Below, piece by piece: positions 1,503 to 20,558 of a DNA stretch of 20,724 nt. Position 1 is the first letter of the stretch. Every line of letters begins with the position of its first letter. The position numbers and the translations under genes are program-made. The notes below the pieces were generated by a model. The model ran no database searches. It saw nothing but the letters and a program-made list of their open reading frames with translations, and was not told the origin of the DNA. The stretch comes from a virus, in IMG/VR virus record IMGVR_UViG_3300022746_000405, positions 1 to 20,724 of that record; one strand, given 5' to 3'.

Positions 1503-3278
1503 TCACGGGGCGGTTGCCTTCAGAGGCTGCATGGTTTGCTTTCGCCAGCCATCCACGGCGACCGCCAAGTCGCCGACAGCCTTATCGGATGTCCAGCGCT
1601 CCCAGAATTCAACGGTGCCACTGTTAGGTCTATGCTCGGGCATAGACACACGAATCCGCGTCGGCAACAGACTGGCGTCTCCGACAACTAGCGCCTCACC
1701 TGTGTCAAGCACAGGCAGTAGGTCACCGAATCCCGCCAAGCTGTCCGGCAGCAGCCTTCGTACCACTGACTGGTCGTCCCCATTAGTCAGGCGCATGGTC
1801 ACTAGGTTATTGCACTGACTCAGTACAGTCCGGTTGACCTCAGAGGGCCGCTGGCTAATAACAACCAATCCAACGCCATATTTGCGGCCTTCCTTAGCGA
1901 TTCTCTCGAAGATTTCGACGGAGATCTCTCCCGCCCCGCCTGCCTGTTGCCGCTCGGGGATATAAAGGTGTGCCTCGTCGCAGAAAATTGCGATGGGATG
2001 GCGCATTGAAGCTTCGGTCCACTGCTGCACGGAGAAAGCGAGCTTAGCGACCAGACTCACCATCAGTGGCAGCACATCCGACGGAACCTCTGAGAAGTCG
2101 ATAACCTTTACTCCCCCACCGCCATCAGCCTGATCGACCGACCCTGCCAGCAAAGCCTTTACCAATCGATCGAGCCAATCAAACGTCTGCGTTTCATCGG
2201 CGCCTTGAAACAGGAAACCCAGCCTCCTGTCCGTACGCTTGTTCTCCAATCGCTGGATCATCCGACTCAGCTTGCCATTGAACTCGCCAGCCTTCTCTGT
2301 TCCGGCGCGCGCACCTGGCACCATTTCCTCGTTCAGCTCACTCAGAACTTCAATGACCCCAGTGAGGTCGAAAGGAATCGGGCTGTCAATCGTGAAATTG
2401 TCGAGAACGTCTTTACGGCCCTGCGCCTCAAGATATTTTTGCTTAGCTGCAAGGATGGTTCGCGACATGACCATAGATTGGTTTGGTGCGTTCTGATCGG
2501 ATCGCTCGACAAACATCGACGTCATGGCTTCGTAACCGAGCAACCAGTACGGCAGAAAGATTACTCCGTGGTCAATAGATGCCTTGCCAGTTAGATCGAC
2601 CGGCCCTGCAATGCGGAAGTGTCGAAAGCCCTTCGAGGCCAACGGGGCGTACTCTCCGTGGATGTCGAAAACGATCGCATTTGCGTTCGGAAGGGCTGCT
2701 ACTTGCTCGAGAATCCGGGCCGTTGTCCAGGACTTGCCAGAGCCTGTGCTGCCGACAATGACTGCATGCCGTTGGAAAAATTTGTTGCCGTTTAAGAAAG
2801 CGTCAGCGCTTTCATCTAAGGTGTAGTGGCCGAGTGTGAGCTTCTGCCCTTCGCCCGAAATGTTCGCAATTACGCGCATAAATGCCGTCAACCGTGCTCC
2901 TTCAAGGGCAAAGCAGTTGGCATCAATCTCTGGAACTGTCTCAAGCGTACGCAGGAACACGTTATCGCGGACCCCAATCTTGTCCATGAGTGTGCCGATT
3001 AGCCCGATACGCACCAAGTTGAGTTCAGCGATGCGATCACCATCAAGATCGTCTTCTGTATCGATGGGGTTTCCCTTGCCATCGACTGCTGTGCGCGTGA
3101 TTTTCTGGATGATGCCAATCAGATGCTGACCAACGCGACTGCTTTGCAACACGGCCAACCGATTGACCTGCAGTTTGCGCAGTCGCTCTACATCGTCCAC
3201 CGCGATAACGACTGTTGCGGTATCCACGGACCGGACACGCCCAAGCGATTCGTTGTCTTTGTAATCGAGGATGCTCAT
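1503..3278 (-). CDS. herA: HerA-type ATPase of a SIR2-HerA defence system
   Basis: The product has 591 residues and the layout of HerA/FtsK-clade ATPases. An N-terminal beta-barrel (HAS-barrel-like, about residues 10-110) is followed by a RecA-like core. The Walker A motif GSTGSGKS is at 176-183 and Walker B AIFCDEAH has its acidic pair at Asp434-Glu435. A sensor-like stretch VVISQRPSEVN follows. HerA forms hexameric rings on DNA. In SIR2-HerA systems it assembles with the SIR2 partner into a large complex whose NADase, and in some cases nuclease, activity responds to phage infection. Here it is the second gene of the operon, starting 6 bp after the stop of the SIR2 gene, so the two are almost certainly co-transcribed. 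Length and motifs look complete. The housekeeping HerA-NurA pair is an alternative family context, but the SIR2 partner argues for defence. Confidence 0.92.
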   Translation of the reverse strand: MSILDYKDNESLGRVRSVDTATVVIAVDDVERLRKLQVNRLAVLQSSRVGQHLIGIIQKITRTAVDGKGNPIDTEDDLDGDRIAELNLVRIGLIGTLMDKIGVRDNVFLRTLETVPEIDANCFALEGARLTAFMRVIANISGEGQKLTLGHYTLDESADAFLNGNKFFQRHAVIVGSTGSGKSWTTARILEQVAALPNANAIVFDIHGEYAPLASKGFRHFRIAGPVDLTGKASIDHGVIFLPYWLLGYEAMTSMFVERSDQNAPNQSMVMSRTILAAKQKYLEAQGRKDVLDNFTIDSPIPFDLTGVIEVLSELNEEMVPGARAGTEKAGEFNGKLSRMIQRLENKRTDRRLGFLFQGADETQTFDWLDRLVKALLAGSVDQADGGGGVKVIDFSEVPSDVLPLMVSLVAKLAFSVQQWTEASMRHPIAIFCDEAHLYIPERQQAGGAGEISVEIFERIAKEGRKYGVGLVVISQRPSEVNRTVLSQCNNLVTMRLTNGDDQSVVRRLLPDSLAGFGDLLPVLDTGEALVVGDASLLPTRIRVSMPEHRPNSGTVEFWERWTSDKAVGDLAVAVDGWRKQTMQPLKATAP

Positions 3279-3284
3279 AGGTAT

Positions 3285-4316
3285 TCACCCAGTGATAAGT
3301 GGAAGGAATTGGTCAAGGCGCCAATAGGATTGGTCAGTCAGCTCCAAGCCATCGGGAAATTCGTGACTGAACATGCGCGTGCCGTTTTTTGATTCCTCGA
3401 GTGCTACGTAACGGCTGCAGCGTCCGCTTTTTAGAAACCGATGAGCCGTGGAGCTAATTTCCTTGGTGATAAGTACCAACGGGACCTCTGGCCGCGTGCA
3501 GCGTTCCATCATTAGCGGCTGCAGGTGATCATCATTGAAGCCGTAGCCGATGCATAAGAAGGCGTTGGCACGAGCGACTGCATCGTCTGCGCTGTGCATC
3601 GCGCTGCGGAATGGCTCGTCGTGGGTGCGCCGGTATTTTTCAGTGCCAGGCGTGACTATCGCAGGGGTGAAGCCACAAGGGACAGTCCCCAAGGGGGGGA
3701 GCGCTACGATGGAGCCGTCTCTTCCGCTGAACCAGCCCAGAGAGCCATGAACCTTCCAGACGTTAACCGTCCGCGCCTGCCGTCGCCCAACATGGATTCG
3801 GGGCAAATCAACTGCACGCGAGCCGAACATGCTGAAAGTAAAACCAGTGTAGGCGCTATAGCCGGCCGCCTCTGCGGCGTACTCAGCAAGACGGTCGTAG
3901 TTCGGAGTCACGACTTGGAGCTCCATGGCTGTGCTGCGTAGCATGTGCTGAAAGAGCTGACTGAGCGGTAGCAAGCGTCGGTCGGTCAGTACCTGCTCGA
4001 AAACCTGGAAGTCCGCTGCATTGAGGAACTTCCAGGTAGCGTGCACGATGTGCTCAAGCACTTCAGGCGTCACGTTGACGCCAGTCAGCGCCGATTCAAG
4101 GTCCATCTTCTGGACTTTGTCCAGGAAGTCTCTCCATCCCGTGAGGTGTGGTTCGGACTGACAAGGAGCTGGCAGGATTGAGGAAGCAAGATGCTTGCCC
4201 AACGGACCCATACCTGGAATGCCGTGCGCTACTGATGCGCCGCTGCCCAACAGAATGACAGGCAATTTTCCGATGCAGTCCTGTATTAGCAACTGCATTG
4301 ATTCCATTTCGTCCAT
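3285..4316 (-). CDS. sir2: SIR2-domain NADase of a SIR2-HerA defence system
   Basis: The product has 343 residues. The N-terminal Rossmann entry motif GSGASVAHGIPGM (24-36) fits the NAD-binding loop of SIR2-like proteins. TPNYDRLAE carries Asn139, and WKVHGSLGW carries His190; this Asn/His pair is the usual catalytic set of defence SIR2 proteins. A late segment FLCIGYGFNDDHLQ matches the conserved GYGFxDxH element of the SIR2_2-type family. Defence SIR2 domains hydrolyse NAD+ and starve the infected cell. This gene leads the two-gene operon; the HerA gene starts 6 bp after its stop. The ATG at 4316 has a G-rich stretch (AGGGGT on the coding strand) about 8 bp upstream. About 230 bp separate it from the right-hand long repeat, which leaves room for its own promoter. 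Confidence 0.92.
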   Translation of the reverse strand: MDEMESMQLLIQDCIGKLPVILLGSGASVAHGIPGMGPLGKHLASSILPAPCQSEPHLTGWRDFLDKVQKMDLESALTGVNVTPEVLEHIVHATWKFLNAADFQVFEQVLTDRRLLPLSQLFQHMLRSTAMELQVVTPNYDRLAEYAAEAAGYSAYTGFTFSMFGSRAVDLPRIHVGRRQARTVNVWKVHGSLGWFSGRDGSIVALPPLGTVPCGFTPAIVTPGTEKYRRTHDEPFRSAMHSADDAVARANAFLCIGYGFNDDHLQPLMMERCTRPEVPLVLITKEISSTAHRFLKSGRCSRYVALEESKNGTRMFSHEFPDGLELTDQSYWRLDQFLPLITG

Positions 4317-4588
4317 CGTTTCTGCACCCCTTTTTCTGGATTCTTACAGAAAATGAAAATAAAACTGAATGTTTTCGATTGGTGCTCGCGAAACGAGACC
4401 AGAAAAGCATGCATCTCTCAGGTCAACCGATGAACCTGATACGGGGGCAACTCGCGAATCTCATTCCATCGAGTCTATGGGTGGCTGAAGACTGCTTCTG
4501 CACGGGGCCGCCATTCACTGCGTACAGATCAATGCCTCAGAACAGCCTGACTCGACAATGCCTCCCTTTCACAACATGAAGAGGCTGT

Positions 4589-5089
4589 ATGCGAGAGCGC
4601 GAGAAAGAACGGATTCAACGGGTTAAGGATGCACAAAAGCGCCTTGAAGAAATCAAAACGCGTATCCGGGAAGAGACAGTTACCGATTTTGTTGGCGACA
4701 AGTTAACCACTCGTTTCCCGCTGTACAGCCGGGAGGTGCAAGCACTGGAAACACTGATTGAACGCAATTAGCGCTGGGTCATCAAGCCCAGAAAGAAGAA
4801 AACCCCGAAGTTACCTCCAACTGGCATCACGACCGATTCAGCCTTGTTTACAGACCAGATGCTTGCCGCCAGATGGCACTGCTCGACGTCTCGACTTCAA
4901 TATTGGCGCTCCAATGATCAAGGGCTGCCCTACCTCAAGATGCTTGGCCGTGTGCTCTATCGAATTGAAGACATACAGGCATACGAGCAGCAGTCGATGG
5001 TCTTCCCTCAAACCCTGCAAAACCAAGATAACAAGCCTGCTGAACTGGGCCGCGAGCACGTACAACCAGACAAAACAGATTCAAGCTGA
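4589..5089 (+). pseudogene. Second copy of the helix-turn-helix gene, interrupted by an in-frame TAG
   Basis: The frame is collinear with the intact copy at 488-988 and of identical length (501 bp). A TAG at 4769-4771 replaces the CAG codon for Gln61. Upstream of it 60 residues (coiled-coil part) are readable. Downstream the frame stays open to 5089 and preserves the helix-turn-helix region nearly unchanged. No other disruption is visible. An internal start at ATG 4859, which would give a protein beginning MLAARWHC, could still yield part of the DNA-binding domain but would lack its first helix. The nonsense change looks recent compared with the overall divergence between copies. Suppression of the TAG cannot be excluded. 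The start has a better ribosome binding site (GAAGAGG) than the intact copy. Confidence 0.8.
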
Positions 5090-5968: not shown

Positions 5969-6625
5969 ATGACTCCCGACCTACCCAAAAAATACGCCGA
6001 AGAATCGCTGATCGTGGTTCCGTACGTGACCGTTAGCGAACTGCTGCCGGGCACAGGAGTCTGGCCGGTTTCGGAAGCCTTGCTGAACCTCATTTCGACA
6101 CCATCGGCCATGCGGAGGGCCGACGCAGAACTTACGACCGAAGTCACCCAACTGATCTCGTACTACGTTGTGAGGAACGGTGATCGCATCCTCACGCACA
6201 GGCGAACTCGTCGTCAACCGGAGAAGCGTCTGACTGGGGTCAAGGCTGCAGGTCTGAGCGGTCACATGACGGTATCCGATTTGCCTGGGTTGACTACGCA
6301 GGACCTGTTCCATCAAAGCTCTGCAAGTGGCTATGCGAATCGGGAGTTGGCAGAGGAAGTCTTGGTCCAGATAACTTCCGAGCATCCGATTAGTCTGCGC
6401 TGTTGCATTTGGGAACCGGTGGACGATTTTGGGAAACAGCACCTCGGACTCGTCTACCTAGTACCCGCCAAGGAAGAAATCAAGGTGCTGGAGCCTGGTC
6501 TGATCGCAGACGCTGCTTTCGAACGCGTTTCCGATATTCGCGCCAACTATCGCAATTTCACTTCTTGGTCTCGCCTGCTGCTGGAGTCCGAATTTTTCGT
6601 TGACATATTTTCCAGGGAGGAGTGA
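5969..6625 (+). CDS. Nudix-type hydrolase, GGH/NREL phosphoesterase subgroup
   Basis: The product has 218 residues. A first strand-like region LISYYVVRNGDRILTHRRTRRQ is followed by GLSGHMTVSD (Gly98-His99) and then by ANRELAEEV (Arg125 to Glu130). This matches the predicted phosphoesterase subgroup of Nudix proteins, in which a GGHxxxxD motif precedes the RELxEE half of the Nudix box. The glutamates of RELAEE would bind magnesium. Nudix enzymes cleave nucleoside diphosphates linked to another group, such as ADP-ribose, NADH or dinucleotides; the substrate here is unknown. The leading half of the classic box (GX5E) is not evident, as is common in this subgroup. It is the first gene of a three-gene set; its stop TGA lies 2 bp before the chosen GTG start of the next gene. 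Confidence 0.7.
   Translation: MTPDLPKKYAEESLIVVPYVTVSELLPGTGVWPVSEALLNLISTPSAMRRADAELTTEVTQLISYYVVRNGDRILTHRRTRRQPEKRLTGVKAAGLSGHMTVSDLPGLTTQDLFHQSSASGYANRELAEEVLVQITSEHPISLRCCIWEPVDDFGKQHLGLVYLVPAKEEIKVLEPGLIADAAFERVSDIRANYRNFTSWSRLLLESEFFVDIFSREE
6614..6620 (+). promoter_or_regulatory. Ribosome binding site that decides the start of the membrane-protein gene
   Basis: AGGGAGG is 7 bp before GTG 6628 but only 1 bp before the alternative GTG 6622, which overlaps the Nudix stop. Spacing favours 6628. Confidence 0.65.
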
Positions 6626-6627
6626 GC

Positions 6628-7518
6628 GTGAGCTATCCATGGGTGAACGGGGAATGGACAGTCCCCATCAATCAAAACTTGTACGCGTCCTTCCTCTTCT
6701 GGGTCCTACAGATTGTTTTGGGACTGATTTGGTCGGCACTTAAGCGCTGGACAGGCACGAGCAAGTTCGTGTCAGGCTTAGGATGGCTGGTCTTGACTTT
6801 GCCGCCGTTAGCTATCGTCGGTTCGTCCGTCTTTCTGGGCGTCGTTACGCCGTGGATGATGTTGCTGTTCACGTTGAGCTTATTGCCCGCTGCCTTCAAG
6901 GCTATTCAGACGCACAAAAACTTGAAGGCGTTGCGCACAGCCGGAGTTCATGGTGCGATCGAGGAGCCGGGAGTTACCGACTTCCGCAACTTTCTTATGC
7001 AAGCCAACAGTGGCTTTTCGTTTCTGGGCGTCGGTGCGGAAAAGCTCACGCGTGACTTCGATGTTTTCCAGGCAATGGTCGCCAGATGCGGCACCTCTTC
7101 GAAGCCTGTACGCCTGTTGTTGGTGTCTCCGGTCGCTTCTTGGCTGCAGACAGGTGCCTCGCGGCGCGGCTTGAACAGGACCGCCTTTCAGGCAAAGCAG
7201 GCGGACTCGCTCGAAAAAATCGAACGGGTCAAATCCAAGTTCAGTGGTGAAATCGAGGTGCGCTTCTATCAGGAGCGACCGGGCTTGCGGCTTATGTTTG
7301 CCAATGGCGATGTATGCTGGTTGGGACATTACACCGAGACCGCCGCGTTGCCGGGTATGAACGAGTATGAACAGAAGAGCAATTCCTGTGTGGTGTTGAA
7401 GCGCCCCGGTGACAGGGCCCCTGACCAGCAACTTTATGGAGCGCTGGAAGGGCTTTTCGACGAAATGTGGGAGTCAGCAAGAGAGCAAAAATGGAATTTC
7501 AAAACATATCTTCCATAG
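6628..7518 (+). CDS. Three-helix membrane protein with PLD-like soluble domain (no HKD)
   Basis: The product has 296 residues from GTG 6628. Hydrophobic segments at about 20-38, 50-72 and 74-90 predict three membrane helices. The remainder is soluble. It runs FLMQANSGFSFLGVGAEKL, then VRLLLVSPVA, then EIEVRFYQERPGLRLMFANG. That order (a strand with FLG, a strand with LLVSP, then a xxVRFY strand followed by a display of a small hairpin) is how phospholipase D-like sensor or effector domains of conflict systems read. The catalytic HKD motif is absent, so ligand binding is more likely than hydrolysis. The last 28 bp overlap the NadM-like gene. Co-translation with a Nudix protein and a nucleotidyltransferase suggests a membrane effector responding to a nucleotide. 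The domain assignment is by pattern only and should be treated as tentative. Confidence 0.6.
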   Translation: MSYPWVNGEWTVPINQNLYASFLFWVLQIVLGLIWSALKRWTGTSKFVSGLGWLVLTLPPLAIVGSSVFLGVVTPWMMLLFTLSLLPAAFKAIQTHKNLKALRTAGVHGAIEEPGVTDFRNFLMQANSGFSFLGVGAEKLTRDFDVFQAMVARCGTSSKPVRLLLVSPVASWLQTGASRRGLNRTAFQAKQADSLEKIERVKSKFSGEIEVRFYQERPGLRLMFANGDVCWLGHYTETAALPGMNEYEQKSNSCVVLKRPGDRAPDQQLYGALEGLFDEMWESAREQKWNFKTYLP

Positions 7519-8084
7519 GTTGCATCCATGGACGATTCCAGCCATTTCATCTTGGTCATGTTGACTACCTGCAAGCCGCTCTGGCTCAATGGGAGTCGCT
7601 CGTGATCGGCATTGCCGCACCGACGCCCGTGCCACTGAGCTTCCCCGGGGTTGAACACAGAAATCGCGCCTCTGCGAATCCGCTGACTTACCTCGAACGA
7701 ACGGTGTTGATCCGGGCATGCTGCCGCGAACTTGGCATCTCGGACAAACGCATCGAGTTCTCGCCATTTCCGATCGATGATCCGGGCATACTGCAGCACT
7801 ACATCGGCAAGTCGTTGACGTGCGCGACTACGCGGCTTTACGCGTGGAACGACGAAAAAATTCGACGACTCAAAAATGAAGGCTACGCAGTAGTCGTGCT
7901 AGAGCAATGCGAGAAAAAGCCGTTCGATGGAACTGCAATTCGTCGCCTCTTGGCAGACGGCGACACTTCGTGGAAGTCCATGGTCCTGCCCGCGGCTGCA
8001 CACTTGCTGACATCTTGGGACATCCCTAATCGCATCCGAGACAGTGAAGCGGCAGAAGGCACCAATCCGAAAATTACTCTGTGA
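7491..8084 (+). CDS. NadM-like nucleotidyltransferase (HIGH superfamily, NMN adenylyltransferase type)
   Basis: The product has 197 residues from ATG 7491. GRFQPFHLGH (14-23) is the signature loop of archaeal-type NadM adenylyltransferases, with the two histidines of HxGH that position ATP. The segment RNRASANPLTYLER corresponds to the second ATP-binding element (ASNPFTxxER in NadM). GTAIRRLLADGD near the C-terminus is the ISTT(S)xxR-type motif. All three elements are intact, so catalysis is plausible: joining an adenylyl group to NMN or a related phosphate. A GTG at 7467 is a possible alternative start with no better ribosome binding site. Being last in the trio with a Nudix protein, it might make a nucleotide that the Nudix removes. 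It could equally serve NAD salvage. It is not the usual bacterial NadD. Confidence 0.78.
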   Translation: MEFQNISSIGCIHGRFQPFHLGHVDYLQAALAQWESLVIGIAAPTPVPLSFPGVEHRNRASANPLTYLERTVLIRACCRELGISDKRIEFSPFPIDDPGILQHYIGKSLTCATTRLYAWNDEKIRRLKNEGYAVVVLEQCEKKPFDGTAIRRLLADGDTSWKSMVLPAAAHLLTSWDIPNRIRDSEAAEGTNPKITL

Positions 8085-8540: not shown

Positions 8541-8804
8541 TCAGGAACTTCCGGAGTCACGATCAATCGAATACGACTTAGCTGGAGGTCGCCCTGGTCG
8601 CTGCCGCTCCAGACGACTGACCAGTACCTCGGCAACGTCATCGCCGACATCCTCCAATGCTAGCAACGCTAAACGCACCACTTCGCTCCGATTCAATAGG
8701 TGCCCAGAACGTGCCAGTCGCAATCGAATACGCTCAATGCGGTCCCTTTCGCCCGCCGGGAGCGAAAAAGTACCGACCGCACTACCTTGCGACGAACGAG
8801 TCAA
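8541..8804 (-). CDS. Small ribbon-helix-helix (CopG/ParD-like) DNA-binding protein
   Basis: The product has 87 residues starting at TTG 8804; the frame closes four codons upstream, so no ATG start exists. The pattern is strand GTFSLP (about 11-16), helix ERDRIERIRLRLARSG, then helix NRSEVVRLALLAL. That fits the beta-alpha-alpha plan of ribbon-helix-helix dimers, which bind operators through the paired strands. The tail PGRPPAKSY is basic and likely disordered. It is divergent from the methyltransferase gene across a 140-bp AT-rich gap, a position typical of an autoregulator acting on both promoters. It could instead be the antitoxin half of a broken toxin-antitoxin pair; no toxin gene follows within this window. 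The TTG start and the short length limit confidence. Confidence 0.55.
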   Translation of the reverse strand: MTRSSQGSAVGTFSLPAGERDRIERIRLRLARSGHLLNRSEVVRLALLALEDVGDDVAEVLVSRLERQRPGRPPAKSYSIDRDSGSS

Positions 8805-8944
8805 GACTTGCTTTCAATTTTAATTGCAATAAAATATTTATTATATAATCATATCACTCATTTTTTTGACGTATCCTCAGCCCACGGCAAGCTAAGTCGC
8901 AATTTAAATAACGACGTGCAGCAAAACGCAATCTCTTCTTAACA
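8805..8944. promoter_or_regulatory. AT-rich divergent promoter region before the methyltransferase operon
   Basis: The 140 bp between the divergent ribbon-helix-helix and methyltransferase genes are strikingly AT-rich from 8811 to 8870. A TATAAT occurs at 8844-8849. On the plus strand the only TTG-like -35 (TTGCAA, 8824-8829) is 14 bp away, shorter than ideal, so the promoter assignment is weak. TATATAAT is nearly symmetric and could serve either strand. There is no clear Shine-Dalgarno before ATG 8945. Confidence 0.35.
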
Positions 8945-10306
8945 ATGACCTACGATTCGCCTCGCTTCCGCGCAATGGACGACGCTTTATTAGCGCTGGG
9001 TGTGTCGCCAACAGCCGCGCTCTACCTTGATAGATGTCAGGTCGACACGCCGAGCCCTTTGGTTAGAAAAGTCTGGGATATCGTCAACAAGATAAGAGGC
9101 CCTGTTGGCAAGGTTGTCGATTTTGGTGCGGGTGATGCCCGCTTTGCAAAATATGGTCACTACAAGTCATACGTGGGATACGAGATTGATCCCTCTAGAT
9201 GCTCCCTGAAGAATCTGCCTGGGCATGCGGAGGTAGTAAATGCCTGTGCATTCTCTGAAGACATTTGTGATGCGAGCTTGTCGATCGGCAATCCGCCCTA
9301 TGTTCGAAATCAAGATCTGCCTGAAGGCTGGAGACAAAAAGCTGCGGCAAAAATTCAACAGCGAATTGGAGTGAAGGTATCTGGTCTTGCCAACGCTTGG
9401 CAGTATTTCTTTCTGCTGTCATTGGCGAGCACCGCAGAGGATGGTTTGGTTGCCTTGGTCATACCCTACGAGTGGGTGTCTAGACCATCCTCAGAAGCCT
9501 TGCGCGAGTACATTAAAAAATGTGGCTGGAATGTAGATGTCTACCGTTTGGGCGACAAGACATTTGACCGTGTCCTTACTACTTGTTCGATAACCATCGT
9601 CGACAAGAAGGCACGGGAAGGTGTCTGGCACTACTACCGCGAAAACGAAGACGAGAGCTTTTCGCTAATGCGCGCTCTAACGGGCAGCAACCGCAAGCTG
9701 CTGTCATACGATCGCTCAAAGAAGGCCTTGATACGTGCAAAACGCGGACTAAGTCCAGGTACACAGACCTACCTCACGCTGACTGAGGGGGAACGAGCAA
9801 GATGTGGCTTGAAAATTGGTACAGATGTAGTCCACTGCGTCACTAGCCTGAAGTCTATCTCCAACGAAACAGAGCTTCTTGATGAAGCTACTTTTCAGCG
9901 AGATTTTATTGATGCAGGAAAAAAATGCTGGCTGATAAGGACTGACAAAAAACCATCGGTCAAGCTGCAGCGTTATTTGGACAGCGTACCAGCCAAAGGA
10001 AGGCAAACAAGTACATGTACTAAACGCGACGTCTGGTGGGCCTTCACTATGCCCCAAAAACCAGCACTTCTCATGGCCACTGGGTTTAGGGTGCGCCCCA
10101 AAGTAGTTCGCAATGAGGTCGGCGCGATGGCACTCGGAGGGGTATGTGGTATTTACGGTACAAGTGACGCAAAAACCACTAAAAAAATTGCTCAATTTCT
10201 TCGCAGCGAAGACTATAAAGGGCGCGTTGTTCCGCACGCAAATGGCCTACTTAAATTAGAAATCAACCAAATCAACTCGTTGCTTAACTCGATGACCGAA
10301 TCGTGA
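8945..10306 (+). CDS. N6-adenine DNA methyltransferase (NPPY type, TaqI/Eco57I-like)
   Basis: The product has 453 residues. Motif I is DFGAGDARF (59-67), motif II is YEID around residue 80, and motif IV is NPPYV (116-120), the hallmark of adenine-N6 methyltransferases. A hydrophobic ALVIPYEWV follows, as in the TaqI/Eco57I group. The C-terminal 250 residues would be the target recognition part; a late AMALGGVCGIYG resembles that found in related enzymes. It transfers methyl groups from S-adenosylmethionine to adenine in a specific DNA site, probably to mark self DNA. No restriction endonuclease domain is visible in it or nearby. Its stop overlaps the start of the GHKL gene in GTGA (10303-10306), so the two are translationally coupled. 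AT content is higher than in the neighbouring phage genes, suggesting separate ancestry. Confidence 0.85.
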   Translation: MTYDSPRFRAMDDALLALGVSPTAALYLDRCQVDTPSPLVRKVWDIVNKIRGPVGKVVDFGAGDARFAKYGHYKSYVGYEIDPSRCSLKNLPGHAEVVNACAFSEDICDASLSIGNPPYVRNQDLPEGWRQKAAAKIQQRIGVKVSGLANAWQYFFLLSLASTAEDGLVALVIPYEWVSRPSSEALREYIKKCGWNVDVYRLGDKTFDRVLTTCSITIVDKKAREGVWHYYRENEDESFSLMRALTGSNRKLLSYDRSKKALIRAKRGLSPGTQTYLTLTEGERARCGLKIGTDVVHCVTSLKSISNETELLDEATFQRDFIDAGKKCWLIRTDKKPSVKLQRYLDSVPAKGRQTSTCTKRDVWWAFTMPQKPALLMATGFRVRPKVVRNEVGAMALGGVCGIYGTSDAKTTKKIAQFLRSEDYKGRVVPHANGLLKLEINQINSLLNSMTES

Positions 10307-12567
10307 AAACAGCCCTACCCACCACAACCTCATCAAATCCTATTCTCGACTCTGGGGAAGAATCCTTCACTATTGAAAGCCGCATTATTCGGGAATTTGG
10401 TGAGCGCTTAGTTAAACACCCTGAGGTAGCGTTGCTTGAACTGGTAAAGAACGCGTATGACGCCGATTCCCCATCGTGTACCGTTGCCCACAATTACCCC
10501 GAGCACATAACCGTTACCGATACCGGTTGCGGAATGACGTTAAAAGAATTCCAAACAGGTTGGATGCGGATCGGTACAAGCTCGAAAGAATCCAAAGCAA
10601 CCAGTAATAAGTTCAAGCGACCGATATCTGGAGAGAAGGGGATTGGACGGTTCGCTGTGCGCTACTTAGGTCAGCATTTAGAGTTAAAAACTACAGCCTA
10701 TGACACCGCTCGAAAGTGCAATACAACATTGATTGCAAAATTCGATTGGCCTCAATTTGATCTCAATGAAGACCTAGGAACAGTCAAAGTACCCTACAAA
10801 TTACACAGGGCATCAGATGACACCCCACTCGGAACAATTCTGCGTATCACTCAGCTGAGATCAAGCACAGAGAATATTGATTTTAAGCAGGTACAGACAG
10901 CATCTCTTGGGTTGCTATCCCCGTACCAAGTTTTGCTTCGAAAAAATGAGAAAGACGATCTTCTTGACTTGCCAGATCCCCCCCAAGGCTTAGATACTGG
11001 ATTTAATCTTGTCATTTACTCCCAAGATGAAGATGAAGAGAAAGAGGAGTCGGTAGCGGAGAAGATACTTGAAAATTATGTCTTCCGCTGCATAGTCTCT
11101 GTACGAGGTGGCCGTTTGGCGCTTCGCCTGTATCGGCGGGGCGAGCGCAAAGCATGGTTAAAAATCAATGACGTATATGAAAATACGTTTGACCAAGCCT
11201 ACGCCGATATCAGATTTTTTCCGGCTCGAAAAGGCACATTTACTGCCATGCCAGTTGATGGCCGCGAAGCTCGTGCCTGGGTGAAAAATCATTCTGGTGT
11301 TGCGGTCTTTGATCGTGACTTCCGCGTTTTACCATATGGCACTTCGGGTGACGATTGGTTGAGGTTAGCTGCGGACGCGTCGCGAAATGAGCGCAATCCA
11401 GTGTCAAGTCTTGCACGGCGACATTTCCCAATGGATGAAGAAACTCAGCGATCCACAGCGTTGAACTACATGCTCCGCCTGCCACACCCAAGCCAGCTAG
11501 TCGGGGCCGTACAAGTATTTGGGGTTCGCAGCGAGGAGAAACAAGGAGATATAGGATTATTTGCAACCGCCGATCGCCAAGGATTTGTTCAGAACAAGGC
11601 GTATCTGCAGCTTGTCGATGCCGTTCGCAGCGCCGTAGAGGCGATTGCGTATGCAGATAGAGAATTGCAGCAAGAAACAGAGGCACGCGAAATTGCTGAT
11701 CTTGCAAAAATCGCTCAGAACGAAACAGCGGAAGCCATCGCGCAGGTCCGAACCAACGCTAACCTCACATCTTCTGAGAAAGCATCACTTGTTAAGCGCC
11801 TAGTAAACGTCCAAGAAGCCACCGAACGCCATGATAATTTGGTCAAAAGTCGGGATACGGCCCTTGAAGTAATGAGCCTATTGGGCGTAGTCGCCGGATT
11901 TATGACTCATGAGTTTGGAACTGCGATTCATGATTTAGAGCGCTCCCACGAGATATTGTCAAAGCTTGGCAAGCGTGATGCCAGCATCGCCAAACAGGCA
12001 ACCGCTATTCAAACCCACATTACGGCACTCAAGGATTTTGTCGCGTATTCACAGGGGTACATAAAAGGTACATCCATTGTTCCTTCCAACCCGCTTCCCG
12101 CAGCCCCAAGAATCCGGCAGGTACTGAAGGTATTCGGAAAGTATGCGACTGATCGAAAAATCAATGTGGAAGTCGACGTCGCAGCGGATGTTAAGACACC
12201 CAGAATTCCGATATCCCTTTACAGTGGCATCGTTCTAAATCTCTACACAAATGCACTAAAAGCTGTAACTGCACGCTCCGGTGCGCCAGCGCGTGAAATT
12301 GCAGTTCGAGCGTGGAACGAAAAGAATATTCACAAACTGCAAATATCAGATACAGGCGCTGGTATTCCATCAGCTCTGGCGGAAAGAATATTCGATCCAT
12401 TGTTTACAACCACAGAAAGCAATCGTGATCCCCTAGGATCTGGAATGGGGCTTGGGTTGACATTGGTTCGCAAGGGAGCGAAAGCGTTTGGTGGAACTGT
12501 GAATTTAGTAAAACCACCACCGGGGTTTGAAACATGCTTTGAAGTGAAATTTCCAATCGGGGAGTAA
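10303..12567 (+). CDS. Double GHKL ATPase: MutL/MORC/Hsp90-type N-module plus histidine-kinase-like C-module
   Basis: The product has 754 residues, start GTG 10303 inside the methyltransferase stop. The N-terminal module has ELVKNAYDAD (46-55), DTGCGM (73-78) and GEKGIGRFA (110-118), the N, G1 and G2 boxes of an Hsp90/MutL/MORC-like ATPase. A charged, coiled-coil-prone middle (about 440-530) leads to FMTHEFG, with His536 where a dimerisation helix of a sensor kinase would hold its phospho-acceptor. The C-terminal module has LNLYTNALKAV (Asn646, Asn650), SDTGAGI (Asp683) and GSGMGLGLTLV (712-722), the N, G1 and G2 boxes of a histidine kinase. There are no membrane helices, so it is cytoplasmic. 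It presumably passes a signal to the receiver-like protein encoded 3 bp downstream. Whether His536 is phosphorylated is inference. Confidence 0.8.
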   Translation: MKTALPTTTSSNPILDSGEESFTIESRIIREFGERLVKHPEVALLELVKNAYDADSPSCTVAHNYPEHITVTDTGCGMTLKEFQTGWMRIGTSSKESKATSNKFKRPISGEKGIGRFAVRYLGQHLELKTTAYDTARKCNTTLIAKFDWPQFDLNEDLGTVKVPYKLHRASDDTPLGTILRITQLRSSTENIDFKQVQTASLGLLSPYQVLLRKNEKDDLLDLPDPPQGLDTGFNLVIYSQDEDEEKEESVAEKILENYVFRCIVSVRGGRLALRLYRRGERKAWLKINDVYENTFDQAYADIRFFPARKGTFTAMPVDGREARAWVKNHSGVAVFDRDFRVLPYGTSGDDWLRLAADASRNERNPVSSLARRHFPMDEETQRSTALNYMLRLPHPSQLVGAVQVFGVRSEEKQGDIGLFATADRQGFVQNKAYLQLVDAVRSAVEAIAYADRELQQETEAREIADLAKIAQNETAEAIAQVRTNANLTSSEKASLVKRLVNVQEATERHDNLVKSRDTALEVMSLLGVVAGFMTHEFGTAIHDLERSHEILSKLGKRDASIAKQATAIQTHITALKDFVAYSQGYIKGTSIVPSNPLPAAPRIRQVLKVFGKYATDRKINVEVDVAADVKTPRIPISLYSGIVLNLYTNALKAVTARSGAPAREIAVRAWNEKNIHKLQISDTGAGIPSALAERIFDPLFTTTESNRDPLGSGMGLGLTLVRKGAKAFGGTVNLVKPPPGFETCFEVKFPIGE

Positions 12568-12569
12568 AA

Positions 12570-13667
12570 ATGAAGCAGACCATACTGCTGATTGACGATA
12601 AATCAGAGTTTTTAGCTCCGCTAGCAGAAGCACTGGCGCAGAAACTTGGAGAGACGGCAAATGTTGTACCCTGGGTTCCGAACAGTACCGAACGGCCTTT
12701 GGAGAAGTTTGAGCAACTTGTACAAGATAACGATGTCAGACTGGTAGTCACTGACTACGATTTGACGCAGCAAGGCCAACTTGGTTTTTTTGGAGCGACC
12801 GTAGTTGATTGGTGTCAGGTCAAAGGCATTCCAGTAGGGGATTTTTCGCGCGGCAATGCTAGCTCGCTTGCAACTGAGCCCAATCTTTTTGAGCTTAGAG
12901 TCCCCATCCAGTCCAACGATGCAGCTGTTGACTTCATTGCTAGTGTATTTCGTGGCTTCATTGAAATCCGTGCCAACATTGACAGCAACCCCGTACTACT
13001 CAAGCAGAGGAGCCCTGCAGCGGCATTGGCTCTGATGTTAGGGGTTGGGCATTTAGAGAGTCAATTTTCTCAATACGGTACCCGCTATGGAGGTGCAAAC
13101 AGCGCGTTGATTGACAAGTTTGTTGAGACAGCTCATCGAGACGTCACCCCGGATCCATCCCGCAAAGCGACATTGCTTGCGTACATCATGGGACACTTGC
13201 TTCATAACGCTGTGCTGCGCTTTCCGGGACCCATCGTAAGTTCTGAAGCCCTTGCTGCATACCTAGCTGTGAACCAATCCGACCAAGAAAAGTACTTGCC
13301 GATGTTCGCACCAGCTCTTTTCAAAGGTCCATTTTCCGAACTGGACTCCTACTATTGGACTCATTCTGTGGATGAAGTTCTCGCTCAGTACGACGAGAAA
13401 GTGTCCGAAGACATGCAGTTTGAGAGTACTGGTGAGTACAACAGAATTCGAGTTGAAACTGCGCTGCAAACCACGTTGAAACAATCCACAGACTGCCTCC
13501 GATGTAACGGAAAAAATGGTGGCTTTTGGTGCCCATTTTCACGCAAAGCTGTATGCCAACGCTCGGATTGTTCAATTGTCTCCAATGTCTGGATTCCGTC
13601 TGGGGCACGATTGGCTCGATTCGAGCGAGACTTCTATGAAGAGTGGGCACCAATTCTGGGAATGTGA
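12570..13667 (+). CDS. Receiver-like response regulator with C-terminal cysteine cluster
   Basis: The product has 365 residues. It opens ILLIDDKSEF, with the acidic pair Asp9-Asp10, and continues to VVTDYDL, placing Asp62 as phospho-acceptor. The later IPVGDFSRG matches the Ser/Thr switch position, but the conserved Lys of the following KP pair is replaced (LRVP), so phospho-chemistry may be altered. After a helical middle of unknown family comes a cluster with Cys309, Cys312, Cys321, Cys329 and Cys334, which could bind zinc. No DNA-binding output domain is recognised. The start ATG 12570 has GGGGAG 6 bp upstream, overlapping the end of the kinase gene. The stop TGA shares one base with the next ATG (TGATG), showing coupling. 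It is probably the partner of the kinase-like protein; the output is unknown. Confidence 0.7.
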   Translation: MKQTILLIDDKSEFLAPLAEALAQKLGETANVVPWVPNSTERPLEKFEQLVQDNDVRLVVTDYDLTQQGQLGFFGATVVDWCQVKGIPVGDFSRGNASSLATEPNLFELRVPIQSNDAAVDFIASVFRGFIEIRANIDSNPVLLKQRSPAAALALMLGVGHLESQFSQYGTRYGGANSALIDKFVETAHRDVTPDPSRKATLLAYIMGHLLHNAVLRFPGPIVSSEALAAYLAVNQSDQEKYLPMFAPALFKGPFSELDSYYWTHSVDEVLAQYDEKVSEDMQFESTGEYNRIRVETALQTTLKQSTDCLRCNGKNGGFWCPFSRKAVCQRSDCSIVSNVWIPSGARLARFERDFYEEWAPILGM

Positions 13668-14386
13668 TGACATCCATGACACGCAATGAATTGACGGCTC
13701 GAAAGTTGCTCATACAACAGTGGAACAACATTCAGCCCCAACTGCAACGCTTAAACATGCCCGCCATCCGCCCGGCAGATGCGGAGGGACTTTTTAAATT
13801 GATCACACACTCCAAGGTTGCAGGTCAAATTGGCTTTGAGATAACGAATGTGACTTTCAATGTTCCAGAGCGCGCAAATGGTGCGACTGACATATATATC
13901 GTGGCGACAGGTCGCATTTATCTTGATGAAACTGCACTCAATCCGCCAAGCACGCTGAAGACTGTCAGCTTCGCAACTGAAGTTGGATACTTTCGCAAGA
14001 CCCGCAGAGGACTTGAACACGTTTACGGCGCTCACTACGATTTCGCCTTAGACGAAATCGGTCACCCGGTATTTCACGCACAACTTAAAAGCTACAACGA
14101 ACGTGGCCAGGAAGTGTCTGAGACCTTTCAACTCGGTTGTGAGTCAACCGATTGCGTCGGTGGCGTCTTGCGCACAGTGCGATTACCCACCGCACAGATG
14201 GATTTTTTTGCCCTAATTGTTCAAATCTGTGCCGATCATTTATTGAGTAAAGATTCAGGAGACGAAGAGCGCAGGGCATTTGCTGATCTCCGAAAAGTTA
14301 GCCAGGACATACAGGGCGCCGGCTATTTGGCTGCTCGGCTGACAAACACTGCAGGCTGCATGCGGGCACCGCACTGGTACCCTTGA
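13667..14386 (+). CDS. Unrecognised fourth protein of the methyltransferase/GHKL operon
   Basis: The product has 239 residues from ATG 13667, which overlaps the preceding stop in TGATG. I do not recognise the family. It is soluble, with no signal peptide or membrane helix. The N-terminal part is helical (ARKLLIQQWNNIQPQLQRL). A central region with alternating strands leads to HYDFALDEIGHPVFHAQLK, where HPVFH could hold a metal or be catalytic. Two cysteines follow in QLGCESTDCVGG. It ends with a helix and a polar tail, AGCMRAPHWYP. The HPxxH motif recalls DUF2290-like proteins, but the resemblance is loose. As the last gene of a coupled operon it is a candidate effector. GTG starts at 13643 and 13664 are possible but would overlap the previous gene further. 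Confidence 0.7.
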   Translation: MTSMTRNELTARKLLIQQWNNIQPQLQRLNMPAIRPADAEGLFKLITHSKVAGQIGFEITNVTFNVPERANGATDIYIVATGRIYLDETALNPPSTLKTVSFATEVGYFRKTRRGLEHVYGAHYDFALDEIGHPVFHAQLKSYNERGQEVSETFQLGCESTDCVGGVLRTVRLPTAQMDFFALIVQICADHLLSKDSGDEERRAFADLRKVSQDIQGAGYLAARLTNTAGCMRAPHWYP

Positions 14387-14398
14387 AAATAGGTTAAG

Positions 14399-14542
14399 TC
14401 ACAAGTAACTTTGAAAATTCCTCCAACGCTCATACGCCATGAACAGATCAGGACGTAGGAGCGAGGCCTTCTGCTTGCGCAGCTCGGCATTTACTCGCCG
14501 TCGACTGGGATACGTTTCATAGCCATCCAAACGAATTCTCAC
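14399..14542 (-). CDS. Possible small protein at the end of the prophage lysis region (47 residues)
   Basis: A short minus-strand frame starts at GTG 14542, directly after an in-frame TGA, and stops at TGA 14401-14399. The peptide is RLDGYETYPSRRRVNAELRK followed by QKASLLRPDLFMAYERWRNF; it is basic and amphipathic and has the composition of a real phage protein. It lies 24 bp downstream of the Rz gene on the same strand, and its stop is 12 bp from the stop of the convergent operon. There is no good ribosome binding site and no family match I know. It could also be the tail of a decayed gene. Confidence 0.4.
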   Translation of the reverse strand: MRIRLDGYETYPSRRRVNAELRKQKASLLRPDLFMAYERWRNFQSYL

Positions 14543-14566
14543 TCAACACAAATACTAAAGTGATTA

Positions 14567-15061
14567 TTATTTCAAGGATGCGATTCGCTCATTCCAGCGT
14601 TGAATTTCGTACAGCATTAATGTCGTTTGCTCGGAATCTTTGATTAGTTGTGAACAACTTACTTCGACTCCATCATGGGAGGCAACAAATACCATGTCGG
14701 AGGTGCGTCCATCAACTCTTTGGGGAGCTGTGGGAACGGCGGACAAACGGGCTGAGCTGGGCTCGGACTTGTCGAGCACCCGCTCAGCCCCAAGAACAAC
14801 AGCACGACTAGCCAATAGGTTCGACTTCTTGCGATAGTCATCAGAGATCTCCTTAGATATTTGGTTTCGAACATGAGCCACATCGGCAGCGTGTTGCTCT
14901 TGCTTTGCTTGTGCAATCTGCACGATTTGCTTCTCAGCATCCCACTGGCGCTGCAGACGGTATTCCCCCATCTGCAGGCCTAGTAAAAACGCCATGAGAA
15001 GCAGCAGCCCCTTAAAAAGCAAGGATTTATTCAATTCGAGGAACGCACGAATCCAGCTCAT
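14567..15061 (-). CDS. Rz: Phage inner-membrane spanin (Rz-like)
   Basis: The product has 164 residues. One membrane helix lies at residues 14-31 (LLFKGLLLLMAFLLGLQMG), with a short cytoplasmic N-terminus. A long charged alpha-helical stretch follows (QRQWDAEKQIVQIAQAKQEQ), as expected for the periplasmic coiled coil of i-spanins. The spanin pair joins inner and outer membranes and fuses them in the last step of lysis of Gram-negative hosts. The start ATG overlaps the stop of the endolysin gene (ATGA). The second spanin gene lies inside this one in another frame, which is the classic Rz/Rz1 arrangement and strongly supports both assignments. Confidence 0.88.
   Translation of the reverse strand: MSWIRAFLELNKSLLFKGLLLLMAFLLGLQMGEYRLQRQWDAEKQIVQIAQAKQEQHAADVAHVRNQISKEISDDYRKKSNLLASRAVVLGAERVLDKSEPSSARLSAVPTAPQRVDGRTSDMVFVASHDGVEVSCSQLIKDSEQTTLMLYEIQRWNERIASLK
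14659..14841 (-). CDS. Rz1: Phage outer-membrane spanin lipoprotein (Rz1-like), nested within Rz
   Basis: The product has 60 residues from ATG 14841. The signal sequence TYWLVVLLFLGLSGC ends in the lipobox LSGC with Cys22 as the lipidation site. The mature part of about 39 residues is proline-rich (SPSPAQPVCPPFPQLP), as in Rz1 proteins. The whole gene lies within the i-spanin gene in a different frame on the same strand. An upstream ATG at 14940 in the same frame would add a polar N-terminus in front of the signal peptide and is unlikely. It is expected to anchor in the outer membrane and pair with the i-spanin across the periplasm. Confidence 0.85.
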   Translation of the reverse strand: MTIARSRTYWLVVLLFLGLSGCSTSPSPAQPVCPPFPQLPKELMDAPPTWYLLPPMMESK

Positions 15062-18673: not shown

Positions 18674-19216
18674 TCACCGGGCAAGTCCCGGAAACTCTGT
18701 CGAGGTGTACAACCGACCTGGAAACGCTTTATTTCCGATATCGACCATGCGCGCCCTTGCGGTCACTCGCATCACATCAGCCTCCACCTCAGTCAGTACC
18801 AACGTGATGGGAGGATCCATCTGCGGGCCCTCGACATCGTTTGACAAGTACGGGCGATAAGTGACTTCGATGGAAGCTTCTGACTCAGACGCAGCATCAA
18901 GGTGTTTGACGATCTCGCGAGAGACGTTATCCAAGGTCAGCACGACCTCAGGAACAGGTGCAATGTCCACAGGCGGCAAATCCAAATCAAACCCCATGGC
19001 TACAAACCTCACTGTCTGGTTTGGATTCAACGGTGCCGAAGCTTCGAGACGTGCAAAGAGGTCTTGTTGATCTCGCACCACCCGGATAGCTGTTGTCACG
19101 CCCGACTCGTTTTTAAAGTCAGGGTGACGCAGCTCTAAGGTGTGCAGGATCACCACATCTGAAGGTGAACTCGCGTACGCCTCTTTCAACGCATCACTCA
19201 ACGTCACATCAGGCAT
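18674..19216 (-). CDS. DUF1833-family phage tail protein
   Basis: The product has 180 residues beginning TLSDALKEAYASSPSDVVIL, then LELRHPDFK, then a RVVRD strand. This is the pattern of DUF1833 proteins found between minor tail proteins and the NlpC protein in siphophages. VRFVAMGFDLDLPPVDIAPV and VTARARMVDIGNKAFPGRLY are further conserved-looking segments. Its role is presumed to be in the tail tip, comparable in position to lambda gpL. Its start overlaps the end of the radical SAM gene by 8 bp, so the two are co-translated. No membrane or signal sequence is seen. Confidence 0.75.
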   Translation of the reverse strand: MPDVTLSDALKEAYASSPSDVVILHTLELRHPDFKNESGVTTAIRVVRDQQDLFARLEASAPLNPNQTVRFVAMGFDLDLPPVDIAPVPEVVLTLDNVSREIVKHLDAASESEASIEVTYRPYLSNDVEGPQMDPPITLVLTEVEADVMRVTARARMVDIGNKAFPGRLYTSTEFPGLAR

Positions 19217-20558
19217 GCTCTACCTTGATCGGGATGACACGACGCTCTTTCGCTTCGGAGTGCTCACTGACCAATCCAAAGATATCTCGCCGCTCCTGCG
19301 GGAAATCGCCCTCGATGTAGAACGGGAAGCAGCCAGTAAGGAACTCAATGCCTGCGGCTAAAAACGGCACGTTGTCGGCATAGGAGGCATCGCACCCTGC
19401 TGTCCACAAGGGGCCGTCCAAAAACATGCATGAGCCTTTGCACAACTGAAGCACAGGACAATTTGAACAACCGTCTCGCTTGCTCCAATGCGTGGCGCTG
19501 CGCATCTTGACTGCTTGAAGCTGAGAGATGTGCCCAATCTTGTGTGACTCACCGTTTGGAGCTACAGCGGCTGCGCTCACGTTCTGGCAAGTCAACACAT
19601 TGCCGTTTAGATCAACAACGAGGTTGTCGGTGCGGTCCATGCCGCACTTTTGACCCAACGCACTGGCAGGACGGCCTTGGGCCACAGACTCCACAAAGTC
19701 CATGATCTTCTTGCGACCGATATCAAAACTGGTCACCGCACCTGCACGCAACTCCTTGAACGCAAAGGCACTGAAAGTGACGCGCTCCCCTGAAGTCTGA
19801 AACGTGGAAGCCAATCCACCCTCGTCATACGGATCAATGAAAGCGCCCTCGCCAATGACGACATCCTCACCAAAGCGTTCGCGCAGCCATGCCTGCACAT
19901 GCGCGCGACTTGGATTGTTGGCGTGAATCATGGCGTTGATGCTGATTCGACCCTCAGGCTTCAAGCGCGCGTACAGATCAAAGATGGCAGCTCGCTTTTG
20001 TGGGTCATCCAAAGGATCAGCACCGCGTGCGTGATAACCAGGGCCATCATGCGACAACCCCACTGAGAATCCCAAACGGTCAATCCATGCGTTCTTGTCT
20101 GCATCTAACAGACTGCCATTGGTAATCATGCTGAACTGAGCCTTGGGGTACAACGCCCTCAACCGCTCAGCCAGTGGTTTTAAGGTCTTCCAGTAAACCA
20201 GCGGTTCGCCACCCCAGAACTCAATGCGCTCTGGAGGTTCAATCAGCGCATCGACCAATGAGCTCAAAAACGCATCAACGTCTTCTGGATTGGTTTGATC
20301 TGCATGCGGCACAAACCGTTGTGAGCAGTAGGTGCAGGCGTAATTGCAAAGCAGGCCAAGACTGATCTTGAGCACTCGCACATTGCCCTTGCGACCGGGT
20401 TGATCTTTGGCAACCACCGTCGCATCACGCCAAGCGCGCGCTTTGACTGGAACGACCGACTGGCCATTGCTCCAAGCAAGGCTAGAAGTTTGGTTGTTGT
20501 AGACCAACGAGTCTTCTGTGCCGTCAAGCTTGATCACATAGATGCGGAACTCAGCCAT
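19209..20558 (-). CDS. Radical SAM/SPASM enzyme within the phage tail module
   Basis: The product has 449 residues. A leader of about 60 residues is followed by LLCNYACTYCSQ with Cys71, Cys75 and Cys78, the CX3CX2C cluster that binds the SAM-cleaving 4Fe-4S centre. RIEFWGGEPLVYW is the GGEP SAM-contact motif. A C-terminal SPASM domain shows Cys305, Cys324 (GNVLTC), Cys364, Cys367, Cys373, Cys377 (CX2CX5CX3C) and Cys389, the full seven-cysteine pattern for two auxiliary clusters. Such enzymes modify peptides or proteins, for example as RiPP maturases or sulfatase activators. It overlaps DUF1833 by 8 bp downstream and the oxygenase-like gene by 8 bp upstream, so it is embedded in the tail transcription unit and is not a later insertion between operons. 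The substrate is unknown; a tail protein is the obvious guess. Confidence 0.9.
   Translation of the reverse strand: MAEFRIYVIKLDGTEDSLVYNNQTSSLAWSNGQSVVPVKARAWRDATVVAKDQPGRKGNVRVLKISLGLLCNYACTYCSQRFVPHADQTNPEDVDAFLSSLVDALIEPPERIEFWGGEPLVYWKTLKPLAERLRALYPKAQFSMITNGSLLDADKNAWIDRLGFSVGLSHDGPGYHARGADPLDDPQKRAAIFDLYARLKPEGRISINAMIHANNPSRAHVQAWLRERFGEDVVIGEGAFIDPYDEGGLASTFQTSGERVTFSAFAFKELRAGAVTSFDIGRKKIMDFVESVAQGRPASALGQKCGMDRTDNLVVDLNGNVLTCQNVSAAAVAPNGESHKIGHISQLQAVKMRSATHWSKRDGCSNCPVLQLCKGSCMFLDGPLWTAGCDASYADNVPFLAAGIEFLTGCFPFYIEGDFPQERRDIFGLVSEHSEAKERRVIPIKVEHA

Follow-up and report, generated by a model that had tools for sequence, protein, structure and literature searches.

A two-component-like family, in which HEF_HK kinases (PF19191) occur with Response_reg_2 proteins (PF19192), has been linked to restriction-modification (R-M) genes by Bellieny-Rabelo 2021 (PMC8011034). 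Its loci hold a methylase, most often a C5 methylase, a double-GHKL kinase and a receiver; HATPase_c_3 is present in 83.4% of the HEF_HK proteins, and control of R-M systems was speculated as their role (PMC8011034). GHKL ATPases of the paraMORC type were described in R-M loci by Iyer 2008 (PMC2292703), and in VcSduA (GHKL-Shedu) the GHKL domain is needed along with the nuclease domain in phage defence (PMC12137116). Ssp defence combines SspABCD with SspE or with SspFGH, where a Walker A motif is present in SspF and an FtsK-like end in SspH; 83.9% of sspBCD loci are without SspE and SspFGH (PMC8092258). The Helicase+DUF2290 system acts against T7 (Rousset 2022, PMC9122126), and a figure legend of DefensePredictor (PMC13092281) names HATPase and REC among the domains of predicted, unvalidated systems.

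Here we analysed a window of 20,724 bases, the whole of an IMG/VR virus contig, in which a prophage carries a four-gene set (8945-14386) encoding a DNA methyltransferase, a double-GHKL kinase, a receiver-like protein and a protein that we call X. In the literature searched, no paper was found that names this exact set. The statement of the first-pass annotation that it knew no named system with this set agrees with that search for the exact combination; the general set of methyltransferase, double-GHKL kinase and receiver had already been described (PMC8011034), as had paraMORC ATPases in R-M loci (PMC2292703). The wider family was known, and new here are the kinase branch, its X protein and its coupling to Ssp genes.

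The four-gene set and its surroundings

The set opens with an Eco57I-like, NPPY adenine-type DNA methyltransferase of 453 aa (8945..10306, +), which matches Pfam PF07669 over the cut-off (E=3.5e-9) and PADLOC MTase_II (E=9.8e-20) and has its NPPY motif at aa 116; the DNA methyltransferase expected of a type II R-M system is present in this form. A 4-base GTGA overlap leads into the GTG-started gene of the 754-aa double-GHKL sensor kinase (10303..12567, +), a 2-bp junction into that of the 365-aa receiver-like protein (12570..13667, +), and a TGATG overlap into that of X, a conserved candidate output or partner protein of 239 aa (13667..14386, +), which starts at the ATG at 13667 and not at the GTG further upstream at 13643. 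All four reading frames and all three junctions given at first pass were confirmed, and the same order at 18 other loci places the grouping far beyond chance. An identical copy of the locus is present in a second metagenome record, and the only match when viral contigs were searched with receiver or kinase was a copy of the window. Within 8600-14700, promoter-like sites showed no excess over shuffles; terminator-like sites numbered 12 against 7.1 in shuffles, and none was used.

Both GHKL sites of the kinase are intact, as had been read from the sequence: an N-terminal paraMORC/MutL-like ATPase domain (aa 40-144; 10420..10734, +; HATPase_c_3, PF13589, E=2.9e-21) and a C-terminal HATPase_c catalytic domain (aa 643-752; 12229..12558, +; PF02518, E=2.3e-22). 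From about aa 522-534 onward the protein aligns with solved histidine kinases, and H536-E537 (11908..11913, +), the predicted phospho-acceptor H-box of the DHp domain, is invariant in 19/19 kinases compared. N646, N650, K653, G685, G714 and G716 of the catalytic domain are likewise invariant (19 sequences), and key ATP-site residues of both GHKL domains are kept in 19/19, with one catalytic-domain aspartate replaced by Asn in L006. The best curated relative of the N-terminal GHKL domain is the NCBIfam BbrUII/HgiDII restriction enzyme (E=5.9e-20), at a score under the curated cut-off (71 bits vs 550) and over a match limited to aa 41-193. HEF_HK (PF19191) was detected below threshold at its expected position (aa 527-578; E=0.13; 13.2 vs 24.1 bits). 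A full-length homologue, 37% identical, is encoded in L004.

The receiver-like protein has no Pfam match. Foldseek places its modelled N-terminal part among REC folds (E about 4e-4 to 1e-3, probability 1.0); the C-terminal region is uncharacterised and modelled at low confidence. D62 (12753..12755, +), the predicted phospho-acceptor aspartate that had been singled out at first pass, is invariant in 19/19, as is D10. Profiles built without the window receiver recovered it at E=2e-23, and at 9e-11 when its closest clade was also excluded. The beta-5 lysine of canonical receivers is missing in the window's own clade, with the window, L004, L039 and L106 as the receivers concerned, and this calls for caution about canonical receiver switching. 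Assignment to Response_reg_2 (PF19192) was ruled out (no match for the window receiver; hhalign probability 0.7%), and the branch has a receiver type of its own. The hallmarks of a phosphorelay, a phospho-acceptor His and Asp together with an intact kinase ATP site, are present in 19/19, and from these residues we predict phosphotransfer from kinase to receiver. No DNA-binding output domain was found over the cut-off in receiver or X (Pfam, NCBIfam), in line with the earlier reading. No nuclease family was recognised in the four proteins (Pfam, PADLOC, NCBIfam, PHROGs), X and the receiver C-terminus being without a usable model; the earlier claim that no nuclease is visible is correct for detected families and folds, and the X model is too poor to rule one out.

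To the left of the four genes lies a SIR2-HerA pair (1503-4316) flanked by 300-nt direct repeats (448-747 and 4549-4848) that are 85% identical. Each repeat overlaps or precedes a near-duplicate ORF (488-988; 4844-5089) with a PHROG match of unknown function, and the region has the look of a cassette whose insertion duplicated a flanking gene. Three adjacent same-strand genes at 5969-8084 encode a 218-aa protein (possibly NUDIX-like by eye), a 298-aa protein with a sub-threshold DUF5919 match and a nicotinamide-nucleotide adenylyltransferase-like protein (E=2.5e-19), possibly an NAD-related set near the SIR2 protein, which would consume NAD. The open ORF at the left edge (1-317) looks by eye like a LysR-type regulator's C-terminal part and may be host DNA at the edge of the prophage. 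Lysis and tail genes lie to the right; within the tail gene block, a radical SAM protein is encoded at 19209-20558 (-) (PHROG 1802, E=2.6e-58), and a similar gene is found in Achromobacter phage JWF.

Recurrence of the triad and exchange of its marking genes

A survey of co-occurrence, proposed at first pass as a check on the grouping, bore it out. Kinase, receiver and X genes stand in this order at 19 loci including the window, drawn from Beta- and Alphaproteobacteria, Bacteroidota, archaea and two other viral contigs, with a DNA-modification module three genes away or fewer in 19/19. Besides the window these are four relatives on plasmid records (L004, L005, L006, L010), nine loci found by scanning genomes with the alignment of kinases (L011-L016, L022, L025, L039) and five from a search with X. 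Because the first genome search had used the kinase, the search was redone with X alone; it yielded two viral contigs (L095, L096) and three genomes (L106, L107, L108) as new loci, with receiver and kinase directly upstream of X in 5/5. The sampled genomes gave 2 new loci among 396 Bacteroidota and 1 among 399 Pseudomonadota. A tblastn search of plasmids and phages with the receiver found nothing because its relatives are too diverged; the kinase proved the better bait.

A maximum-likelihood tree of 42 kinases was built with 200 bootstrap trees. The 19 X-linked kinases fall on one side of a branch with support 99/99, recovered in all 200 bootstrap trees; kinases linked to metallo-beta-lactamase-fold (MBL) proteins form a separate clade (100/100), and the three Ssp-linked kinases form a 100/100 clade nested among the methyltransferase-linked members. 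In sister kinase branches, the gene after the receiver encodes an MBL or HNH-type protein. L033 (6580-11455) has an NPPY methylase, a receiver and an HNH-type protein, and L017 and L031 have an NPPY methylase, a receiver and an MBL protein; outputs in these sister branches are apparently interchangeable on one sensor platform. Loci of the kind described in 2021 (PMC8011034) were recovered as well: L103-L105 combine a C5 methyltransferase, the kinase and a 590-aa receiver, and L103 and L104 each have a Vsr-like gene in addition.

The marking gene is exchangeable within the clade of X-linked kinases. An NPPY or NPPF methyltransferase lies three genes away or fewer in 16/19 loci, with another gene in between in L010, and the window methyltransferase is 42-46% identical to those at the same gene position in L004, L106 and L039. 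At the remaining three loci (L014, L022, L107), SspBCD phosphorothioation genes replace the methylase: SspC and SspD adjoin the triad (confirmed by PADLOC), a SspB-like ORF was read from the sequence, and L107 additionally has SspA. In L014, the genes for SspB, SspC, SspD, kinase, receiver and X share a strand and, in this order, apparently form a six-gene operon; SspE, SspFGH and Pbe genes are absent from the stretch examined. Identity of the triad with SspFGH was ruled out, since neither a P-loop nor an FtsK family occurs in it. PbeA and a PbeC-like gene in L107 (2362-6978) and a PbeC-like gene in L022 (5248-7443) adjoin SspCD and the triad, so the triad is not the sole candidate restriction module there, and L014 is the one locus at which it is the exclusive candidate with SspBCD. 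The arrangement in L107 and L022 suggests restriction modules stacked on one phosphorothioate mark.

The kinase-receiver-X triad is a real, mobile and recurring module tied to DNA marking. Its occurrence with NPPY or NPPF methylases at 16 loci and with SspBCD at 3 makes it likely to be a restriction-like module, paired with whichever DNA mark its locus makes.

The X protein and DUF2290

X matches no family in Pfam, PADLOC, NCBIfam or PHROGs, just as it had been called unrecognised, and members of its family come after the receiver gene at 19 loci. The family hallmark is the motif HxD...HPxxHxQ (H123, D125, H133, P134, H137, Q139; 14033..14083, +) together with R172; among the 19 sequences H123, P134 and H137 are invariant and D125 nearly so. 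Pattern scanning needed a narrower alignment than that of 13 X proteins, which was too diverse. A profile built without the window X recovered it at E=7.4e-10, and only at 0.035 when its closest clade was also left out; given this weak value, the link is carried by the comparison of the window's clade with the rest of the family (hhalign E=2.6e-6, probability 89%) and by gene order. A known fold for X was sought and rejected: the AlphaFold model has a pLDDT of 55.8 and was left unused, its best Foldseek match has E=0.19, and a PDB sequence search gave no match. With no solved relative and a poor model, X is a candidate effector by virtue of its gene position.

DUF2290 (PF10053) matched neither X nor its relatives up to E=10. 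Comparison of the two families by hhalign, applied to this single family, which was suspected from the motif and whose members were fetched for the purpose, rather than as a broad screen, gave probability 81%, E=1.2e-5 and a score of 41.1, where the best of 200 column shuffles reached 21.6. With the window's clade set apart, the remaining X proteins matched DUF2290 (86%), and the clade itself had no direct match. Since the window's clade matches the rest of the X family but not DUF2290, the link is transitive, and X is tentatively a remote relative of DUF2290. No description of DUF2290 activity was found in the literature. The profile and structure searches that had been proposed for the last two proteins accordingly yielded a REC fold for the receiver and, for X, this tentative likeness, a poor model and no nuclease fold.

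Proposed mechanism, alternatives and known systems

We give roughly even chances to the reading that the four genes form a mark-dependent, restriction-like phage-defence module in which a phosphorelay replaces the nuclease subunit. The first-pass annotation had proposed a self/non-self mark read by an ATPase-kinase that switches a receiver and an effector; its joining of marking, ATPase-kinase and receiver into one unit is supported by the co-occurrence in 19/19, the invariant phospho-acceptors and the SspBCD exchange, and the later steps may be as follows. Host DNA would be marked by the methyltransferase (by SspBCD phosphorothioation in three relatives), and the soluble kinase, a paraMORC/MutL-like GHKL clamp joined to a histidine-kinase core, would engage DNA in an ATP-dependent manner. 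On unmarked DNA the kinase would autophosphorylate H536 and transfer the phosphate to receiver residue D62. Once phosphorylated, the receiver would release or activate X, which would halt phage replication through an activity at the D125/H133/H137 site, perhaps a metal-dependent one. The triad travels with phage or defence genes, namely lysis, tail and SIR2-HerA genes at the window and tail-like genes by L096. The defence reading is further favoured by the sister-branch MBL or HNH-type proteins that stand after the receiver, by the likeness of the X family to DUF2290 from an anti-T7 system, and by the joint need for GHKL and nuclease domains in VcSduA (PMC12137116). We further advance, as a tentative possibility, that kinase-receiver-X is a portable, nuclease-free module whose phosphorelay senses the absence of a mark, which can couple to base methylation or backbone phosphorothioation, marks that differ chemically, and ranks among the missing restriction partners of orphan SspBCD loci.

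The same genes could make up an ordinary ATP-dependent R-M system, in which X or the receiver C-terminus is a diverged nuclease, the GHKL protein a MutL-like licensing clamp and the relay vestigial or structural. The closest GHKL profile of the kinase, that of the BbrUII/HgiDII restriction-enzyme family, fits this, as do its PADLOC matches to REase_II models, the conserved D/H residues of X, which could bind metal, and the Vsr-like or HNH-type nucleases of sister branches. We nevertheless consider it rather unlikely: no nuclease family is detected in the four proteins (Pfam, PADLOC, NCBIfam, PHROGs), and invariance of H536 and D62 in 19/19 is unexpected for a vestigial relay. A two-component regulator that adjusts expression of the modification genes or of genes nearby in the host or prophage, X being an accessory, would account for the two-component layout and agree with the R-M control proposed by Bellieny-Rabelo 2021 (PMC8011034). 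Receiver and X have no DNA-binding output domain over the Pfam and NCBIfam cut-offs, however, and the module moves with modification genes across phyla, onto archaeal, plasmid and viral records, and is not tied to one regulon, so that we hold such a regulator to be decidedly unlikely. Lysis and tail genes beside the window set, and tail-like genes by L096, recall prophage self-protection, in which the methyltransferase would shield the DNA of the phage against restriction by the host and its three partners would serve superinfection exclusion or lysogeny instead of mark-dependent defence. Against this, genome and plasmid records of bacteria or archaea are the source of most relatives, and three of the relatives mark DNA by phosphorothioation; we regard self-protection as very improbable.

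If the mark-dependent phosphorelay is correct, it would join restriction by DNA marks to two-component signalling. It would offer a testable answer to the reported lack of SspE and SspFGH at most sspBCD loci (PMC8092258). The replacement of methylation by phosphorothioation inside a single kinase clade suggests action of the triad on a mark in general, and X and DUF2290 gain a common set of residues to test.

Detocs is an anti-phage system in which a histidine-kinase relay leads to an effector, and by description it resembles what we propose for the window. It is not known to have a DNA-marking gene, which by description sets it apart. With Ssp defence (PMC8092258), the common point is that three relatives adjoin SspBCD, in the slot of a restriction module. 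With Helicase+DUF2290 (PMC9122126), the X family shares a D...HPxxH...R core, whereas the recurring set of the window is without a helicase gene and the similarity of X is remote. The paraMORC R-M loci (BbrUII/HgiDII-like, VcSduA) likewise have an N-terminal MutL/MORC-like ATPase beside methylases or nucleases; a nuclease is typically in their protein or operon, whereas the window has a histidine-kinase core and a receiver in its place. HEF_HK/Response_reg_2 loci share with the window set a soluble, paraMORC-related kinase built of HATPase_c_3, H-box and HATPase_c, adjoining a receiver-like gene and a methylase. The window branch differs from them in having an NPPY adenine-type methyltransferase or SspBCD in place of a C5 methyltransferase, a receiver that is not PF19192, a HEF_HK match below the cut-off, a separate kinase clade and X.
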